IMG/VR virus record: IMGVR_UViG_3300036770_003629 | Location: 1-20,972 of that record | Length of the DNA stretch: 20,972 bases | Strand: one strand, 5' to 3' | DNA from: a virus | Shown here: positions 5,604-13,010 of the stretch, one piece after another | Position numbering within the stretch: position 1 is the stretch's first letter | How the letters are laid out: each line of letters opens with the position of its first letter | Notes under the pieces: generated by a model | Seen by the model: the letters and a program-made list of their open reading frames with translations, nothing else | Told to the model about the DNA's origin: nothing | Database searches by the model: none | Made by a program: the position numbers and the translations under genes

Positions 5604-5969
5604 ATGAAAAATCAAGAAAACAAATCAGCACAATTAGGTCGTCCAGTAAATATGAATTCAGCTCGTCAAATCCGTTTAGCTGAGATCCAAGCAAAGCGTG
5701 AAGCAGGTTTAATTAAGCGTGGTCGTCCATCAGTTCCAGGTTCTGCTAATGCATTAAAGAAAGAAATGCAATTAGCTAAGAAATTATCAGGTGTAGATAT
5801 TAAGCGTGGTCGTCCAGTTAATCCAGAAAGCGCTCGTGCAAAGCGAATCGCTGATTTAGAAGCACGTCGTGCAAGTGGAACATTGAAATTAGGACGTCCT
5901 AAAATGGTAGTGGTTGAAGTGCCGGTTAAAGCGAAAGCAAAGGTTAAGACAAAGGTAGTGGCTGAATAA
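5604..5969 (+). CDS. AT-hook-repeat DNA-binding protein
   Basis: This 121-residue basic protein has four GRP cores, at residues 12-14, 40-42, 69-71 and 97-99, spaced 28, 29 and 28 residues. Two have the classic AT-hook form KRGRP (38-42 and 67-71); the others are LGRP. Units 1 and 3 share (L/R)GRPVN...SAR..R(L/I)A.(I/L)(Q/E)A(K/R)R. The C-terminus is a basic tail (KAKAKVKTKVV). AT-hooks insert into the minor groove of AT-rich DNA, which suits this genome, so a nucleoid-like or architectural role is likely; host transcription interference is also possible. The product looks like three tandem helical units with a final half unit. It has its own promoter-like element and ends in a hairpin over the stop codon. 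Confidence 0.75.
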   Translation: MKNQENKSAQLGRPVNMNSARQIRLAEIQAKREAGLIKRGRPSVPGSANALKKEMQLAKKLSGVDIKRGRPVNPESARAKRIADLEARRASGTLKLGRPKMVVVEVPVKAKAKVKTKVVAE

Positions 5970-6171: not shown

Positions 6172-6192
6172 TTTACGTGTATAACAAAAAAG

Positions 6193-6220
6193 TGCGCGTA
6201 TCACAAAAAGGATGCGCGTG
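6193..6220 (+). terminator. GC-rich hairpin after the 6019 gene
   Basis: CGCGTATC (6195-6202) pairs with GATGCGCG (6211-6218), eight pairs including one G-U, extendable by two wobble pairs, around the loop ACAAAAAG. TTAAAAAAATTTT follows shortly. It probably ends transcription of the small-gene region. Confidence 0.5.
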
Positions 6221-6257
6221 TTAAAAAAATTTTAAAAGATACGGTCGATAGCGGGTC

Positions 6258-6300
6258 GATCGCGGTTCGTGTGCGGGTTGCTCCCACGTTAACCGCGGTC
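6258..6300 (+). ncRNA. candidate structured RNA hairpin in GC-rich island
   Basis: GATCGCGGTT (6258-6267) pairs with AACCGCGGTC (6291-6300) over 10 bp with one G-U. Stacked inside it, CGTG (6268-6271) pairs with CACG (6285-6288) after a TT bulge, and GGG (6275-6277) pairs with TCC (6282-6284) around a TTGC loop. Such a long bulged stem in an AT-rich genome is unlikely by chance and suggests a functional RNA or a DNA extrusion site. No riboswitch or known RNA family is recognised. Confidence 0.45.
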
Positions 6301-6514
6301 CCTATGCGGGGTGGGTGGGGCCGTGTCTTAACCATGCGCACTCTCAACACGTATACACTTTTACACCCAACCCCTCGTATATACAAATATAACCAATAAG
6401 TCAAATAACGTTTCAACAGTCTAAATATAATAGAGAAATTTTAGGGATCAAATTCCAAAATAACCCTTTTGGGATAAAACCGCAAGATCCGAAATTTTAA
6501 CCTCTACAAAATTT

Positions 6515-6545
6515 TTTGGAAATACAAGCGTATATACGATCTTTG
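6515..6545 (+). promoter_or_regulatory. host-type promoter for the T5orf172-like gene
   Basis: TTTG (6515-6518), 19 bases, then GATCTTTG (6538-6545) matches the Bacteroidetes pattern TTTG-N19-TANNTTTG apart from the first base of the -7 box. The spacer ends in the palindrome CGTATATACG (6529-6538), a possible repressor site. The gene begins at 6602. Confidence 0.5.
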
Positions 6546-6601: not shown

Positions 6602-7072
6602 ATGGAAAATTTAACAGGTAAGGACACATCCGAATTTTATGAGATGAACGCTCAACAAGTGCGAGATAACGTTCGTTCAGCTCGAGCATACGACTTTGTT
6701 GATGACGGACAAAATGCATGGAAAGTGCGCTATTTTAAAAAGAAATTTGGTCATAAAACCTCCCCACATTCAACAGGCCATATTTACGTTCTACAAAACA
6801 CTTCGGTGCCTGGAATATTCAAAATTGGGTTTACTGAGCGTTCGGTTGCTGATCGTGTGAATGAAATAAACTCTGCTACGGGTGTGATTACACCGTGGCA
6901 AATTCGTGATTTTTGGTTTACCCAAAATCCATACGCGGCAGAACAAGAAATTCATGACCGTTTGAATGAATATAGAGTGGAGAATAATCGCGAGGGATTT
7001 GCGGTAAATTTTATGGTTGCGCGTGACGTGATTTTTGAAGTTTTGGGCATACCTAACGAGGATCTCACGTAG
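6602..7072 (+). CDS. T5orf172/GIY-YIG-like domain protein
   Basis: The 156-residue product has a polar, charged N-terminus (residues 1-55) followed by a T5orf172 (MUG113-like) domain of the GIY-YIG superfamily. The domain shows GHIYVLQN (59-66), FKIGFTER (73-80), an arginine at 85 in SVADRVNEIN, a beta-strand WQIRDFWFT (99-107), AEQEIHDRL with Glu116 and His118, and NREGFAV (129-135). In GIY-YIG nucleases the (G/H)IY and KIG strands, an Arg and a Glu build the active site; the equivalents look present, so DNA binding and possibly cleavage are reasonable. It could be a homing-type or host-DNA-attacking enzyme, or only a binding protein. It is flanked by non-coding regulatory DNA with its own promoter. 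Confidence 0.75.
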   Translation: MENLTGKDTSEFYEMNAQQVRDNVRSARAYDFVDDGQNAWKVRYFKKKFGHKTSPHSTGHIYVLQNTSVPGIFKIGFTERSVADRVNEINSATGVITPWQIRDFWFTQNPYAAEQEIHDRLNEYRVENNREGFAVNFMVARDVIFEVLGIPNEDLT

Positions 7073-7530: not shown

Positions 7531-7722
7531 ATGAGGTATAAAGACCAAGCTTTGGATAGAATTAACCAATTGACGAACATTGCTCGTACATTGGATTTTC
7601 AAGTTTCAAGATTAGAATCACAAGATTCGATTTTACAAACAATTCAAGATTTAAAAGAAAAGATTGAAGAAGTTCAATCATTAATTTCAATCGAACATGA
7701 TGAGTTTTCATCATACGTTTAA
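7531..7722 (+). CDS. small coiled-coil protein
   Basis: The 63-residue product starts MRYKDQALDRINQLTNIART. Almost the whole length is predicted helix with hydrophobics at heptad positions (FQVSRLESQDSILQTIQDLK, then EKIEEVQSLISIEHDEF). No family name is certain, but small coiled-coil proteins of this kind often sit near the HD-hydrolase and gp55 genes of marine T4-like phages. It is the first gene of the late block, 19 bases before the HD gene. Confidence 0.7.
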   Translation: MRYKDQALDRINQLTNIARTLDFQVSRLESQDSILQTIQDLKEKIEEVQSLISIEHDEFSSYV

Positions 7723-7741
7723 ACTTTAAAATAAATAGGTT

Positions 7742-8512
7742 ATGTTGAATGAACAACAATTATTAGATAATTGGAATACTTTTTTGGATTTTATTAAATC
7801 TGAAATTAAGGGCGAACGTGGTACTAAATTATTACAATTCTATGAAAAGTACGAAGAACGTTTTATTCTATTACCTGCATCGCACAAACCACAATATCAT
7901 AATTGTTTTCCTGGAGGATATGTTGAACATGTTAACCGTGTTGTAAATGCATCTTTAGATATTTTTGAGGTTTGGACAAAATACGGCGTCAAACCAGTGT
8001 TCACACGTGAGGAAGTTGTTTTCTCCGCGCTTAATCATGATTTGGGAAAGTTTGGAACATTGGAATATGAAGCTGTATTACCGAATCCGTCTGAATGGCA
8101 TGTGAAAAATCGAGGTGAAATTTATACTTTCAACACTCAGATGGATTATATGACAGTTCCAGACCGAGGTTTATGGTTATTATCACAAATCGGTGTTGAA
8201 GTTTCTAAAAATGAGTATTTAGCAATCAAATTACATGATGGTTTATATGATGATTCTAATAAATCATATTTAATGTCATGGTCTCCAGAAACTAAATTAC
8301 GTACATCATTACCGTTTATTATCCATCAGGCTGATTTATTAGCTGCTCGTATTGAATTTGAACGTGAATGGTTAGATAAATTAAACGGAACACCAGTTAC
8401 TGCACCTAAACCCGCAACAACACAAACTTACAATAAGAAACCACAAATTAATGTAGACGCATTACCTCAATCGGGTTTAAAAGATATTGTAAGTAATTTC
8501 TTTAACGATTAA
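7742..8512 (+). CDS. HD-domain phosphohydrolase
   Basis: This is a 256-residue HD-superfamily metal-dependent hydrolase. The metal ligands are visible in order: His63 in GGYVEHV, His99-Asp100 in LNHDLGKFG, and Asp198 in HQADLLAAR, with His165-Asp166 in KLHDGLY and His195 as likely further site residues. The region NCFPGGYVEHV and the HDLGK motif resemble the 3'-5' exoribonuclease YhaM and nucleotidase-type HD enzymes, and such genes are common in T4-like marine phages. Nucleotide or RNA phosphodiester substrates are possible; the sequence does not identify one. The C-terminus (about residues 215-256) is a Pro/Thr-rich linker and a short helix. The next gene starts after one base. Confidence 0.85.
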   Translation: MLNEQQLLDNWNTFLDFIKSEIKGERGTKLLQFYEKYEERFILLPASHKPQYHNCFPGGYVEHVNRVVNASLDIFEVWTKYGVKPVFTREEVVFSALNHDLGKFGTLEYEAVLPNPSEWHVKNRGEIYTFNTQMDYMTVPDRGLWLLSQIGVEVSKNEYLAIKLHDGLYDDSNKSYLMSWSPETKLRTSLPFIIHQADLLAARIEFEREWLDKLNGTPVTAPKPATTQTYNKKPQINVDALPQSGLKDIVSNFFND

Positions 8513-8513
8513 T

Positions 8514-8795
8514 ATGGAAACTATATTACTATTTACAGTATTAAGTTTATTTGTCCTTACGTTAGGATATATAATATATAATTTACTTAAAAAAACAGAA
8601 CGTTTAGAAAAATTGGTTGATGAACAAGACCAATATATTACTAATATTTCTGAACTTATTGAATTGTCGAATAAAAAAATTGGGGAGTCTGAAGTAGCAC
8701 AAGCTTTTAAAGCAGACGATGATATTGGTTTTTTCTTTGAGACATTACAAGAAATTCAAACTCAATTGAATTCTTTTAAAACACGAAATAATTAA
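8514..8795 (+). CDS. membrane-anchored coiled-coil protein
   Basis: The 93-residue product has an N-terminal hydrophobic helix (about residues 4-24, LLFTVLSLFVLTLGYIIYNL), then a basic KKTERLEK start to a coiled coil (about 25-55) and a C-terminal part with DDDIGFFFETLQEIQTQLN. It is probably a type of inner-membrane protein with its coiled coil in the cytoplasm. The segment DDIGFFF(E/K)T..EI recurs, to my recollection, in small proteins beside gp55 in marine T4-like phages, but the role is unknown. Junctions on both sides are one base, so it is in one operon with the HD hydrolase and sigma factor. Confidence 0.7.
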   Translation: METILLFTVLSLFVLTLGYIIYNLLKKTERLEKLVDEQDQYITNISELIELSNKKIGESEVAQAFKADDDIGFFFETLQEIQTQLNSFKTRNN

Positions 8796-8796
8796 T

Positions 8797-9552
8797 ATGG
8801 ATTTAATATCCCCTCCAGAAGAAGAGGTACTTCTTACCAAGAAAGGTACTATACGTAAACGTAAGCCTAAGAAATCAATTCTATATTTTACTTCAGATAC
8901 TGAAGAAGCAATTATAGAATATTTAGCGTCTAAAGATCAAGACGAACGTAATCATATATTTGATCAACGTATTGACTATGCTTTTCATAAATTAGCAGAA
9001 AATATTATTCATACATTTAAGTTCTATTATACGGATGTTGATACTATTAATGAGTTAAAACATGAAGTAGTTGCTTTTTTACTTGAAAAACTTCATTTAT
9101 ATGATCAGTCTAAAGGTAAAGCATATTCTTATTTTGGTACTATTGCTAAGCGTTATTTAATTATTTATAATGAAAAAAATTATAAAAAAATTAAGGGTAA
9201 AGGCGAATTAGAAGAAGTAGATGAAGATAAAATTATTGTTGAAGACTTAGTTCGTGAAGCTAATAACGATGCTGATTTAAATGACTTTATAGATTATTTT
9301 GTTCGTTATATGGATGTTAATCTTGAAAAAATATTTTCTAGGATTCAAGATCAAAAAACAGCAGACGTAATTTTAGAATTATTCCGTAAACGCGAAAATT
9401 TAGAAATATTTAATAAAAAAGCTATCTACATTTATATTCGTGAAATGATAGACGTTGATACTTTTCAAATAACTAAAGTAATTAAAGTACTAAAAAAGAT
9501 ATATTATCGTTTATATAACGAATACTACGAAACAGGTTTTGTAAAAATCTAA
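8797..9552 (+). CDS. gp55: gp55-like late-transcription sigma factor
   Basis: The 251-residue product has a basic N-terminus (KKGTIRKRKPKKS, about 15-27), then a core (about 28-130) matching gp55-type sigma factors of T4-like marine phages: SDTEEAIIEYL, RNHIFDQRIDYAFHKLAENI, IHTFKFYYTDVDTINELKHE, and GKAYSYFGTIAKRYLI. In sigma-70 region 2 the equivalent helices bind core polymerase and the -10 element. T4 gp55 (185 residues) replaces the host sigma at late promoters with gp33 and gp45. Here the C-terminal extension (about 140-251) is longer and helical, ending IKVLKKIYYRLYNEYYETGF, which could hold extra DNA or partner contacts. It precedes the structural genes it would be expected to activate. 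Confidence 0.75.
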   Translation: MDLISPPEEEVLLTKKGTIRKRKPKKSILYFTSDTEEAIIEYLASKDQDERNHIFDQRIDYAFHKLAENIIHTFKFYYTDVDTINELKHEVVAFLLEKLHLYDQSKGKAYSYFGTIAKRYLIIYNEKNYKKIKGKGELEEVDEDKIIVEDLVREANNDADLNDFIDYFVRYMDVNLEKIFSRIQDQKTADVILELFRKRENLEIFNKKAIYIYIREMIDVDTFQITKVIKVLKKIYYRLYNEYYETGFVKI

Positions 9553-9557
9553 GAAAA

Positions 9558-9567
9558 TATATTTATA
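9558..9567 (+). promoter_or_regulatory. candidate late promoter motif TATATTTATA
   Basis: TATATTTATA lies 13 bases before the first virion gene (ATG 9581), in a 28-base gap at the boundary between the sigma-factor gene and the structural block. It recurs at 20614-20623. Its last eight bases are the reverse complement of the T4 late motif TATAAATA. In such AT-rich DNA the match could be chance. Confidence 0.35.
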
Positions 9568-9580
9568 ATAAATAAATATT

Positions 9581-9955
9581 ATGGATTTTGATCAAAAAAT
9601 ATTTGGAAATAAATCATTTTCCGATCTTTTAAAAAACATTTACGATAATTCCCGAGAAAAAGAAAAACAAATTAAAGATCTTATCTCGGGACTTAAACCG
9701 TTTGTAGCCGATACTCAATCGGCTTTAATGGTTGTTCCATTAATTAAAGAATATCTTGACGTTTCTGTTAAGAATGATGATTCATTAATTAAAATGGCTG
9801 GTATTGTACAACGTGCTATGGCTAATTCTGGTGGTAATGGTGATAGTGATTTTTTAAGTGAAGCTGAATTAGAACAACTAAGAGGAGAAGTACAGAAAAT
9901 AAGCAACGAAGTAGAAAAACCGGTAAATGTAGATGGCAACAATAGTAAGGAATAA
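9581..9955 (+). CDS. probable small virion structural protein
   Basis: The 124-residue product starts MDFDQKIFGNKSFSDLLKNI. It is mostly helical with a hydrophobic patch (ALMVVPLIKEYLDVS, residues about 48-62), a Gly/Asn-rich turn, and an acidic C-terminal coiled coil (EAELEQLRGEVQKISNEVEK). It overlaps the next gene by 23 bases. Its place between the sigma factor and the spike gene in a virion operon suggests a structural, assembly or chaperone role, but no motif confirms this. Confidence 0.65.
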   Translation: MDFDQKIFGNKSFSDLLKNIYDNSREKEKQIKDLISGLKPFVADTQSALMVVPLIKEYLDVSVKNDDSLIKMAGIVQRAMANSGGNGDSDFLSEAELEQLRGEVQKISNEVEKPVNVDGNNSKE

Positions 9956-11096
9956 TCAAGGTGTTTTATTTAACTCTTTAAGTTCTGTAGGAGGGAGTAA
10001 TACTCAATCTTCTATAGTTGGAAGGGTATACCATGTTGTTATAGATAAAAATTCACCTGGATTTTACGGAGATTGGAGTAATATAGGAAATGTATATTAT
10101 GTTTCTCCAAATAAACCAGTCCCTTCAGATATTAACGATGAGTCGTTAAAGAAATTAAATTTTGCAAAACCCTTATTTCCATTTAATTCATATATTCCAT
10201 TAATTGAAGAATTAGTATTATTAGTAGATTTACCTTCAAGTAATTCTTCTGATGTGACTGATCAAAAACAGATATATTATTTAAGTTCTATTAATTTATT
10301 TAATAATACAAACCATAATTCTCAGGCTGTTTTTAATGTTAAAGAAAACAACTCCATTAAGTTAGGAGAAAGTATTGAAGAAAAAGAAACAATTAATTCT
10401 TTACTACCATTTGAAGGAGATCATATATTATATGGAAGATGGGGGCAAGGTTTACGCTTAAGTGGTACTTTAAAATTTAACGAAACCGAAAATTTTTGGT
10501 CTAAAGTTGGAAACAATGGTGATCCTATTACATTATTAGTTAATGGATATAATTTCCCCAAAAATTCAGTTACACCTTATATAGAAGATATAAATAAAGA
10601 TGATTCATCTATTTATCTTACTTCAACACAAATAATCCCATTAGAAGTCTCACGGTTAATTGATTCAAATCCATTAACTTCTCCATTAAATCCAAATAAA
10701 TATTCGAATAGCCAAATAATAATATCATCTAATAGAATCACATTAAATTCTAGAAAAGATGAAATTATGCTTTATTCGGGTACTAATATAGAATTAAGTG
10801 CTAGTCAAATAATTCATTTAAATTCTAATAGTAGTATATTATTAAATAGCCCTAAAATTTATTTAGGTGTAAAATCAACAGGTAAAACACCAACAGAACC
10901 TGTATTATTAGGAGCAAAAACAGTAGATCTACTTTCTAAATTATTAGAAGCATTAAATGGATTTGCTTCTGATATCAGACATGCTAGATCACCATATACT
11001 TATAATGTACATGCTGCTACTTTATTTGGTAAATTAAATACATTGCGTGGTAAATTAAATGATATATATTCTGAAACTGTATTTGTATCTAAATAA
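9933..11096 (+). CDS. gp5-like baseplate central spike protein
   Basis: The 387-residue product has an N-terminal beta-rich domain (about 28-180; from SSIVGRVYHVVIDKNSPGFY, then DHILYGRWGQGLRLSG), consistent with the OB-fold of spike proteins. A repeated strand region follows (about 258-312: IIISSNRITLNSRKDEIMLY, then IHLNSNSSILLNSPKIYLG), the short-repeat beta-helix of T4 gp5 and VgrG, and then a helical C-terminal part. T4 gp5 carries a lysozyme domain between the two (575 residues in all); none is visible here, so this is the shorter lysozyme-free form. The spike forms the membrane-piercing tip of the tail. It overlaps the next gene as TAATG. Confidence 0.75.
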   Translation: MATIVRNNQGVLFNSLSSVGGSNTQSSIVGRVYHVVIDKNSPGFYGDWSNIGNVYYVSPNKPVPSDINDESLKKLNFAKPLFPFNSYIPLIEELVLLVDLPSSNSSDVTDQKQIYYLSSINLFNNTNHNSQAVFNVKENNSIKLGESIEEKETINSLLPFEGDHILYGRWGQGLRLSGTLKFNETENFWSKVGNNGDPITLLVNGYNFPKNSVTPYIEDINKDDSSIYLTSTQIIPLEVSRLIDSNPLTSPLNPNKYSNSQIIISSNRITLNSRKDEIMLYSGTNIELSASQIIHLNSNSSILLNSPKIYLGVKSTGKTPTEPVLLGAKTVDLLSKLLEALNGFASDIRHARSPYTYNVHAATLFGKLNTLRGKLNDIYSETVFVSK

Positions 11097-12268
11097 TGGC
11101 AGAAAAATCTAAAGAAGTTCAAGGATTAGTTAGTAAAGATAATAATCTTATAGCTAAAAGTAAAAATAAACTTGGATTAGGTAAAAAATTAAAAGCCCAA
11201 TATGCTAAAACTGTACGTATTCTTGAACTTGAAGTAGAGCAACAAACTCTTGAAATGAAAATTGATGAGTTGAAATTAACAAAACCATTTCTACTCAATC
11301 AAATTCGTAATAGCCCATATATCAAAGATGAAGAACGAGATACATTAGTTACAAATTTAGAAAATAGTATTAACGATCAAATTCAAACATATGAAGATCA
11401 AATATTAGAAATTCAAAAACAACAAGATTTAATTTCTGATCTTCCTGAAGAAGATGTTCAAGTTGCTAAATTAAAAAAAGATAATATAAAAGAAAAAGCA
11501 AAAGAATTTATCTATGATGCAAAGAACAAAGCAAAACGCAAACCATCATTCGATGATATAGTAGAAGCTATTGCTTTTATTACTACTATTATTTTAGAAA
11601 ATGTAGCTATTAATAATACAAAAATTGAAAAATTAGTTGATGAAACTAATGATATTATATTTAATGTTAAAACTCAAACGGATTTTGATACTGCTAAATT
11701 AAAGCGAGGTACTGCTTTAAATATAATTTTAACTAACGAACGTTTATTAGATACAATAGAAAAAATATTAGAAATATTAAATATATTAACTACAATATTA
11801 ACAGCTATAATAGAAATATTATCATTATTCCCTTTTACTTCACCAGTAAATAAAATATTGTTAAAAATACAAAATATATTAAATAAAATCAATCCATTAA
11901 TTCAAGTTGCTTTATTATTAGTTAATAAATTACAAGAAAATTTAGCTGAACATAAAGCAAGATTAGCTGAATTAGGTAGAATATTGCAAGGAACACTTGA
12001 ACAAGTTCCGCAATTAATAAAATCAATATCTAATGAGGGTTTAGGGTATTTAAGTGGATATGATTATAAAGGATTTCAATTTTTTGTTAAAGAAGAAATA
12101 AATCCTTTAACTAGAAACGTAATACAAGGAAATAAACGACGTTATGCTGTCGCTATAAATAGAGATGGTAATGAAGCTGTAAGAAGTTCATTCTCATTTA
12201 CTTTAGATCCTGATGTATTAGTTGAAGAATTAAAATTAATAATAGACCAAAAGGGTCTCGTAGCTTAA
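11096..12268 (+). CDS. virion protein with long hydrophobic helices
   Basis: The 390-residue product has a lysine/glutamine coiled-coil N-terminal half (about 1-150) and a central Ile/Leu-rich hydrophobic region (about 215-290; LLDTIEKILEILNILTTILT, FPFTSPVNKILLKIQNILNK). The C-terminal domain (about 315-390) reads GYDYKGFQFFVKEEINPLTR, GNKRRYAVAINRDG, LDPDVLVEELKLIIDQ. I recall this C-terminal pattern in structural proteins of marine and Bacteroidetes T4-like phages, where it is annotated only as a virion protein. The helical hydrophobic core could be tape-measure-like or a baseplate hub component. It lies between the spike and gp25 genes and overlaps the spike gene by one base. Confidence 0.65.
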   Translation: MAEKSKEVQGLVSKDNNLIAKSKNKLGLGKKLKAQYAKTVRILELEVEQQTLEMKIDELKLTKPFLLNQIRNSPYIKDEERDTLVTNLENSINDQIQTYEDQILEIQKQQDLISDLPEEDVQVAKLKKDNIKEKAKEFIYDAKNKAKRKPSFDDIVEAIAFITTIILENVAINNTKIEKLVDETNDIIFNVKTQTDFDTAKLKRGTALNIILTNERLLDTIEKILEILNILTTILTAIIEILSLFPFTSPVNKILLKIQNILNKINPLIQVALLLVNKLQENLAEHKARLAELGRILQGTLEQVPQLIKSISNEGLGYLSGYDYKGFQFFVKEEINPLTRNVIQGNKRRYAVAINRDGNEAVRSSFSFTLDPDVLVEELKLIIDQKGLVA

Positions 12269-12276
12269 TATTTATA
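12268..12276 (+). promoter_or_regulatory. possible late promoter motif ATATTTATA
   Basis: ATATTTATA shares nine of the ten bases of the element at 9558 and 20614, but begins inside the preceding stop codon and lies only three bases before the ATG at 12280. If it were a promoter the transcript would start inside the gene, so it may be only AT-rich spacer. Confidence 0.2.
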
Positions 12277-12279
12277 ATC

Positions 12280-12588
12280 ATGAAAGTAGACGTATTTAAA
12301 AAACTTATTAAAGAAGCTGTTCGTGAAGTTCTAAGAGAAGAATTATCACAGGTTCAACCTACTCCCATAAAAGAGAACAGAACTATGAGCTTTACAACTC
12401 AGGATGTTGATATGATGGCGTATAGACAAAATTTAGCCGCATCTATGGGTTTAACACCTCCAGTTCAATCACAATATTCAAAACCTCAAGCTGTATCCAC
12501 AGGAAATCCATACTTAGACATTATAGCTGAAACTGCTGCTAATATGACTCCTCAAGATGTAGCTGCAATGAGACAATATAACGAGTAA
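12280..12588 (+). CDS. small structural-operon protein with amphipathic N-terminal helix
   Basis: The 102-residue product starts with a strongly amphipathic helix (MKVDVFKKLIKEAVREVLRE), followed by a Pro/Gln/Ser linker and a C-terminal helical part (NPYLDIIAETAANMTPQDVA). N-terminal helices of the type (V/I)...IKEA(V/I)REVL(R/K)EE recur in small phage structural and scaffold-like proteins, possibly as docking peptides. No catalytic motif is seen. It lies 11 bases after the preceding stop and two bases before the gp25 gene. Confidence 0.65.
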   Translation: MKVDVFKKLIKEAVREVLREELSQVQPTPIKENRTMSFTTQDVDMMAYRQNLAASMGLTPPVQSQYSKPQAVSTGNPYLDIIAETAANMTPQDVAAMRQYNE

Positions 12589-12590
12589 TT

Positions 12591-13010
12591 ATGCCAATTC
12601 CTGTAGTAACTAGAATAGATCCTAGAGATCTAGATAAAAACCGAGCTGTAGGAATAAGTCTTCCATTTAATGGAGGTGGTGTATTTAATAAAACATATTC
12701 AACTCAAGATCAAGTTAAATCAAATTTAATTAATCTATTATTAACATATAAAGGAGAACGAATACTGAATCCAGAATTTGGTGCTGATTTACCTAGATTA
12801 TTATTTGAACCTATAAATAATGAATTGATTACAAAAATACAAGATCAAATAATAAATAATGTTAATATCTATGTTCCTGAAGTTATATTAACTAATATTG
12901 AAGTAACCCCAGATACTGATCATAATACATTATATGTTATGGTTGAATACCAATTAAAAATTTCTGGGAATAAAGATAAAATTATAATAGACTTTTCTAC
13001 ATTAAAATGA
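12591..13010 (+). CDS. gp25: baseplate wedge protein gp25
   Basis: The 139-residue product belongs to the gp25/GPW family, the small wedge protein that helps join the baseplate to the sheath. It shows the family core LLLTYKGER (49-57), NPEFGADLPRLLFEP (60-74) with the conserved PEFG and FEP, the helix TKIQDQIINN, then the beta-strand pair VILTNIEVTPD and LYVMVEYQL. T4 gp25 is 132 residues, so the length fits. The 3' end overlaps the gp6 start as ATGA, indicating coupled translation with its partner in the wedge. Confidence 0.9.
   Translation: MPIPVVTRIDPRDLDKNRAVGISLPFNGGGVFNKTYSTQDQVKSNLINLLLTYKGERILNPEFGADLPRLLFEPINNELITKIQDQIINNVNIYVPEVILTNIEVTPDTDHNTLYVMVEYQLKISGNKDKIIIDFSTLK

Follow-up and report, generated by a model that had tools for sequence, protein, structure and literature searches.

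A single-copy array of 11-bp direct repeats at a conserved locus of uncultured large T4-like phages

A short GC-rich island in the non-coding DNA of an AT-rich phage raises the question of whether it works as an RNA or as DNA and, if as DNA, what it does. The window, by which we mean the whole stretch of 20,972 bases analyzed here (an IMG/VR virus record), has an overall G+C content of 30.6%. The island (6236–6350) reaches 61.7%, the maximum of the window and a value attained by only 0.04% of 115-nt windows in a scan, so that the initial annotation was correct in describing a GC-rich island in an AT-rich genome. The island resides inside a 430-nt non-coding gap, between the end of a 50-aa ORF at 6172 and a plus-strand gene (6602–7072) encoding a T5orf172-domain protein of the GIY-YIG superfamily (Pfam PF10544, E 4.8e-16). 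Beyond the T4 model, little is known of where large T4-like phages begin replication, and a single-copy element conserved over many phage lineages, with an analogous array in a cultured relative, provides a concrete 160-bp candidate for an origin, an operon switch, or a packaging site.

RNA and coding readings of the island

The initial annotation read the island as a candidate non-coding RNA built on a long hairpin, and all of the features that it named are present or can be drawn: positions 6258–6267 (GATCGCGGTT) can form 10 pairs, one of them U–G, with positions 6291–6300 (AACCGCGGTC), a G-run (GGGGTGGGTGGGG) occupies 6308–6320, and CGTGT at 6322–6326 is complementary to ACACG at 6347–6351. 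The pairing, however, does not exceed chance. The RNA of 6236–6360 folds at −45.8 kcal/mol, compared with −44.4 ± 3.9 kcal/mol for dinucleotide shuffles (z −0.36), and 63 of the 200 shuffles are at least as stable as the native RNA; the other (minus) strand gives a z of −1.1. Among 20 divergent relatives, 74.7% of the cells of the 10-bp stem are paired, compared with 74.8% after shuffling of the partners, with stem covariation scores of 0.150 and 0.149, respectively, and the RNAalifold consensus of these relatives is −5.2 kcal/mol, its covariation term being −0.19. Both strands were folded in these tests, which also included RNAalifold on near relatives and an all-column mutual information analysis with a helix scan. 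The G-run varies among relatives (e.g., GCGCGGCGGGTAGG), the CGTGT/ACACG pair is not kept among them, and a scan with Rfam covariance models returned no family at the gathering threshold and only chance matches (E ≥ 0.56).

The only pairing common to all sequences is that of GCGG with the CCGC of repeat unit +1 (see below), and this pairing can be drawn equally from any upstream unit. Direct repeats predict exactly this, and the repeat register therefore explains the pairing; GCGG direct repeats beside CCGC are a trap, as they can mimic an RNA hairpin. The hairpin described in the initial annotation is thus refuted, no covarying pairs being found among the relatives. A structured non-coding RNA or ribozyme of some other form, to which the high G+C content and the apparent 10-bp stem in one genome would point, is highly improbable given the absence of covariation, of additional folding stability, and of a matching Rfam family. 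The accompanying statement that nothing here is coding is borne out, as the arrays lack a codon period and every reading frame is closed in at least some of those sampled. A 71-aa minus-strand ORF (6201–6416) was considered as a gene and discarded as a by-product, since it lacks a codon period and is interrupted by 1-nt indels in two relatives (L022 and L026).

A phased direct-repeat array and its distribution

Related phage contigs were retrieved from IMG/VR with three protein queries from the window, and approximately 20 of the contigs found in this way carry the island at the equivalent position, at 68–85% identity. A DNA pattern based on the most conserved part (GCTCCCACGNTNNNYGCGKTCC) recovered 51 contigs, many of them from quite different phages, and nearly all 51 were confirmed by a profile search. 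Two additional scans contributed three more contigs (L212–L214), and a further candidate (L146) was rejected as a chance match in other DNA. In total, 46 distinct arrays were recovered from uncultured large T4-like phages of three lineages; these are mostly close relatives within the three lineages, with an effective number of 8.6 at 80% identity.

When distant relatives are set alongside the window, the island resolves into 11-bp direct repeats in a single register (6247–6312), a repetition that exceeds chance and was missed in the initial annotation. The in-register alignment of the 46 distinct arrays defines six plus-strand units in the window. Unit −3 (GATAGCGGGTC, 6247–6257), immediately preceded by a partial unit (GATACGGTC, 6238–6246), is followed by unit −2 (GATCGCGGTTC, 6258–6268), which supplies the 5′ arm of the claimed stem with its first 10 bases, and by unit −1 (GTGTGCGGGTT, 6269–6279). 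The core unit 0 (GCTCCCACGTT, 6280–6290) is followed by unit +1 (AACCGCGGTCC, 6291–6301), which contains the 3′ arm of the claimed stem, and by unit +2 (CTATGCGGGGT, 6302–6312), which in most other lineages has the form ATCGAYGG. Across the 46 distinct arrays, GCGG occupies positions 5–8 of the upstream units. CTCCCAC of unit 0 is invariant in the sampled arrays, and GCG and TCC of unit +1 are nearly so; as the scans selected on units 0 and +1, this invariance is partly by construction; no such selection acted on the upstream units, on unit +2, or on the relatives retrieved with protein queries, which also show unit 0.

The periodicity is evident within the window itself, where the lag-11 identity over the first three units (6247–6279) is 0.68, compared with 0.30 for shuffled sequences (p = 0.0002). 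Among 10 representatives that are less than 80% identical, it is 0.52, compared with 0.26 ± 0.024, and none of 2000 shuffles is as high. The column entropy of the arrays has a strong 11-base period and no 3-base period, with its minimum at unit positions 5–7. The register is seen most clearly in contig L147 (GATAGCGGGCC GATAGCGGATC ATTAGCGGGAT GCTCCCACGTT AGCCGCGGTCC ATCGATGGTGC), and three other contigs (L126, L130, and L140) have one or two extra units upstream and an occasional 10-bp step. The array thus shows the regularly spaced direct repeats expected of iterons, in an 11-bp register held across 46 arrays. Conservation in at least 46 distinct arrays, together with the 11-base entropy period, also upholds the earlier suggestion that the element is selected.

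The array is present in one copy in each of eight records of 57–170 kb, giving one locus per replicon; the 170-kb record G003, with its 127-bp end repeat, is probably a complete genome. Sequence scans found no match to the array in GenBank phages or plasmids, and 85,000 bacterial and archaeal genomes in GTDB yielded two chance matches only, both in GC-rich coding-type DNA, so that a host or plasmid origin was rejected. The suggestion that the island was acquired from elsewhere finds no support, since every relative examined has the array at one and the same syntenic position, and no other occurrence of it was found.

Two further repeat-bearing features lie upstream in the window. Directly 5′ of the array, imperfect tandem repeats of approximately 19–20 bp with A-runs (CGTGTTAAAAAAAAGTGCG) occupy 6176–6229, and their copy number varies among relatives. 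A few hundred bp 5′ of the array, positions 5604–5969 encode an AT-hook-like protein composed of (K)RGRP-NxxSxRQxRLAE repeats, whose relatives are found farther upstream in lineages other than that of the window.

Downstream boxes and gene neighborhood

The array is followed by conserved A/T-rich elements, in a genome that is A/T-rich as a whole. Box B1 (TCTCAACACG...TCGTATATACAAATATA, 6342–6391, plus strand) ends in TATATAC-NN-ATATA, and its TATATAC begins at 6378, 98 bp past the core unit. Across the 47 segments examined, the distance from the invariant GCTCCCACG unit to the start of TATATAC is always 95–99 bp, despite the fact that the intervening DNA is barely alignable across lineages. 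Farther downstream, the alignment reveals a conserved A/T-rich block (AAATTCCAAAATAACCCTTTTG..., 6450–6545, plus strand) that contains box B2 (GTATATAC, 6530–6537, plus strand), the full pattern of which is AAAATCT-N-TTTTTTG-N-GTATATAC. Two lineages have the A/T-rich block and B2 within 100–150 bp of B1. The B2-like boxes of lineage C lie 0.3–1.2 kb downstream, beyond inserted cargo genes and just before an ATG, and each box of this lineage, B1 as well as B2, is a few bases 5′ of an ATG. In the genomes tested, the B1 and B2 profiles match at the array locus only, with a single B1 match per genome, and a generic phage promoter class was rejected on the basis of this uniqueness. The T4 late promoter (TATAAATA) is absent from the array locus.

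The place and the boxes can outlast the repeat sequence. In three more distant genomes (G009, G010, and G011), with no more than approximately 50–60% identity in their HD or gp55-like proteins, the place and the boxes are kept and the array has diverged, with GACCCCACAGC at the expected core position in G009 and CCTCGATTAATATATACGAATAT-type boxes in G010 and G011. The likewise more distant group of contig L087 has an 11-bp GCGG array with CCATCGATG. The sequence TCGTATATAC is similar, in part only, to a general intergenic motif of these phages (TCGTATATTTA/TATATTTA). The form TATATTTA is shared by G001, G002, and G003, often approximately 25–35 nt before start codons, and a subclass of this motif in their intergenic regions (TTGG-N17-TCGTATATTTAC) is promoter-like in appearance.

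Downstream of the array, a plus-strand gene cluster (7531–13010) is syntenic in approximately 25 contigs and encodes, in order, a 63-aa protein, an HD-type protein, a 93-aa protein, a gp55-like protein (8797), a 124-aa protein, a gp5-like protein (9933), a 390-aa protein, and gp25 (12591; Pfam). The gp55-like and gp5-like assignments are putative and represent our own reading of the sequences; neither family libraries nor a PDB profile search confirmed the gp55-like protein, and the gp5-like protein had no family match. In the neighborhoods mapped, the array has one orientation and lies 5′ of the cluster of 63-aa protein, HD protein, gp55-like, gp5-like, gp25, and gp6 genes, which run in the direction of the array; the upstream genes differ, and cargo may intervene. 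The T5orf172 gene frequently adjoins the array yet is separable from it, none being seen near the array in three contigs (L129, L136, and L161).

Four long genomes (G001–G004) are transcribed almost wholly from one strand, and in three of them the GC3 skew of the uniformly oriented genes drops from positive values to negative ones across the element. This shift is opposite to the usual leading-strand pattern and therefore fits a boundary between gene classes better than an origin; GC skew was accordingly set aside as origin evidence, its shift being in the wrong sense and found in only three of the four genomes.

Possible roles of the array

Sites spaced by one helical turn, a fixed distance to A/T-rich boxes, single copy, and conservation together argue for a protein–DNA machine at a unique site, and the array is very probably a DNA-level array of protein-binding sites. 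This architecture is seen in iteron origins and packaging sites, as well as in a few dedicated control regions. Among these, replication initiation at an iteron-type origin is the assignment that we favor, tentatively. Six or more units of 11 bp, each corresponding to one helical turn, would present the same helix face to a multimeric DNA-binding protein. The A/T-rich box ending in TATATAC lies approximately 50 bp past the array at a fixed distance, followed in most lineages by the A/T-rich block and the second box, and initiator units assembled on the array may bend or open these boxes and load the phage replisome. An origin is favored because the locus is unique and the A/T-rich boxes are at a fixed spacing, and because, of the T4 origins, oriE alone has been described as containing direct repeats at even spacing (PMC3016281). 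Counting against it, no initiator was identified near the array, and the box–ATG layout of lineage C looks like gene control. In addition, T4-like phages often use several R-loop origins, for which iterons are unneeded.

Control of the downstream operon is a less likely but substantial alternative, in which the array would bind an activator or repressor and B1 and B2 would be promoter-like elements feeding the gp55-like and baseplate operon; the element would then mark the early-to-late boundary. The downstream cluster lies on the strand of the array in the neighborhoods mapped, B1 (in lineage C) and B2 are immediately 5′ of start codons, and TCGTATATAC resembles the general motif, which usually lies approximately 25–35 nt before an ATG. 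Box placement in one lineage, this resemblance to TATATTTA, and a GC3 skew that shifts near the element in the sense opposite to an origin are the reasons for ranking operon control second. A promoter class is, however, expected in multiple copies, and B1 and B2 are found at the array locus only; operators usually diverge faster, no host-type TTG...TANNTTTG pair is present, and if TATATAC served as a −10 box, the messages of lineage C would be almost leaderless.

A pac-like packaging site, at which the array would bind small-terminase rings and the TATATAC boxes would be cut, also accords with a single-copy, helically phased array at a fixed distance from near-palindromic boxes. Five contigs (L120, L135, L138, L161, and L163) start 3–87 bp 5′ of the core, whereas no contig was seen to terminate shortly past it, a pattern reflecting either strain variation upstream that breaks assemblies or real DNA ends. 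These ends are scattered, however, and fall on the variable-cargo side, where strain variation breaks assemblies, and in each of the five genomes with an identified large terminase gene, this gene lies approximately 40 kb downstream, in place of the usual (though not absolute) proximity to pac; packaging is unlikely because of this distance. A partition-like or other DNA-tethering site is very unlikely. The parC site of plasmid R1 consists of 11-bp direct repeats in helical phase that are bound by the ribbon-helix-helix protein ParR, and the present array shares this spacing and phase but differs in that it is not beside a parM promoter, no motor gene was seen, and the sequence is unrelated. 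A ribbon-helix-helix-like protein is encoded in the four long array genomes compared and in the nearest cultured relative, but no ParM or ParA partner was seen, the small protein also occurs in many other contigs, which may or may not have the array, and a lytic phage has no known need for partition.

The same 63–66-aa ribbon-helix-helix-like protein is a weak lead as a binder of the array under the favored origin assignment as well. In G001–G004, its gene lies within a few kb of a clamp-loader-like gene, and its loci (L237:3001-3198, L189:19414-19602, L176:5951-6139, and, on the minus strand, L195:18698-18895) are near clamp-loader and exonuclease-like genes. The PHROG family ‘Arc-like repressor’ is matched weakly by 26 of 38 members of the family (best E 0.001), and the predicted model (pLDDT 79, pTM 0.47) had no structural match in the PDB. 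More than 300 viral contigs encode relatives of the protein. The T5orf172 neighbor was also considered as a partner, given that the T5orf172 nuclease Odn of ICP1 cuts the iterons of a satellite origin (PMC8263062), and it was rejected, as the array and the gene each occur without the other.

Iteron origins are known from plasmids and satellites, such as the RepA iterons of PLE (PMC7145576, PMC8263062), and the present locus resembles them in combining a repeat array with adjacent A/T-rich DNA at one non-coding locus per replicon. PLE-type origins, in contrast, have semi-palindromes of approximately 30 bp, unlike the 11-bp repeats in unbroken register described here, and no Rep or RepA gene was found near the array. 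T4 oriE contains evenly spaced 12-nt ‘iterons’ near baseplate gene 5, with syntenic counterparts in relatives; their role is unproven, and a 2010 review termed it ill-defined (PMC3016281). Evenly spaced direct repeats near baseplate genes are common to both, but the present array is non-coding, 11 bp in period, and GC-rich, and is accompanied by fixed A/T boxes. Near T4 oriE, the strongest repeat with even spacing that we observed recurs every 24 nt within the codons of gene 5 (T4 79,426–79,557; L215:5427-5558), and it may correspond to the published 12-nt cluster.

The nearest cultured relative is Flavobacterium phage immuto (NC_055915), whose gp6 is 46% identical; from this single cultured relative, the host is probably a member of the Bacteroidota. 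Immuto has neither the 11-bp array nor the GCTCCCACG core. At approximately 66,312–66,904 (L207:4313-4905), it has an unannotated array of 22 phased ACCYG-type units, present once in the genome and arranged in blocks of 9 and 13, with mostly 12-bp spacing, some steps of 11 or 13, and one gap of 19. GTATATAC lies between the two blocks, and the array is approximately 10 kb 5′ of the homologous gene cluster. It is an analogous phased single locus that differs from the present array in repeat (ACCCGT), period, and two-block layout. Together, the two arrays may represent a deeply conserved class of loci, not described before, that initiate replication or switch both replication and late transcription in uncultured, probably Bacteroidota-infecting T4-like phages. 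In this doubtful though conceivable generalization, a phased iteron array with an invariant GCTCCCACG would act at a fixed distance on paired TATATAC boxes, and the repeat would be swapped wholesale between lineages (11-bp GCGG, 12-bp ACCCGT) while architecture and place are kept. Two annotated small ORFs of immuto, gp150 and gp149, overlap the repeats and look spurious.
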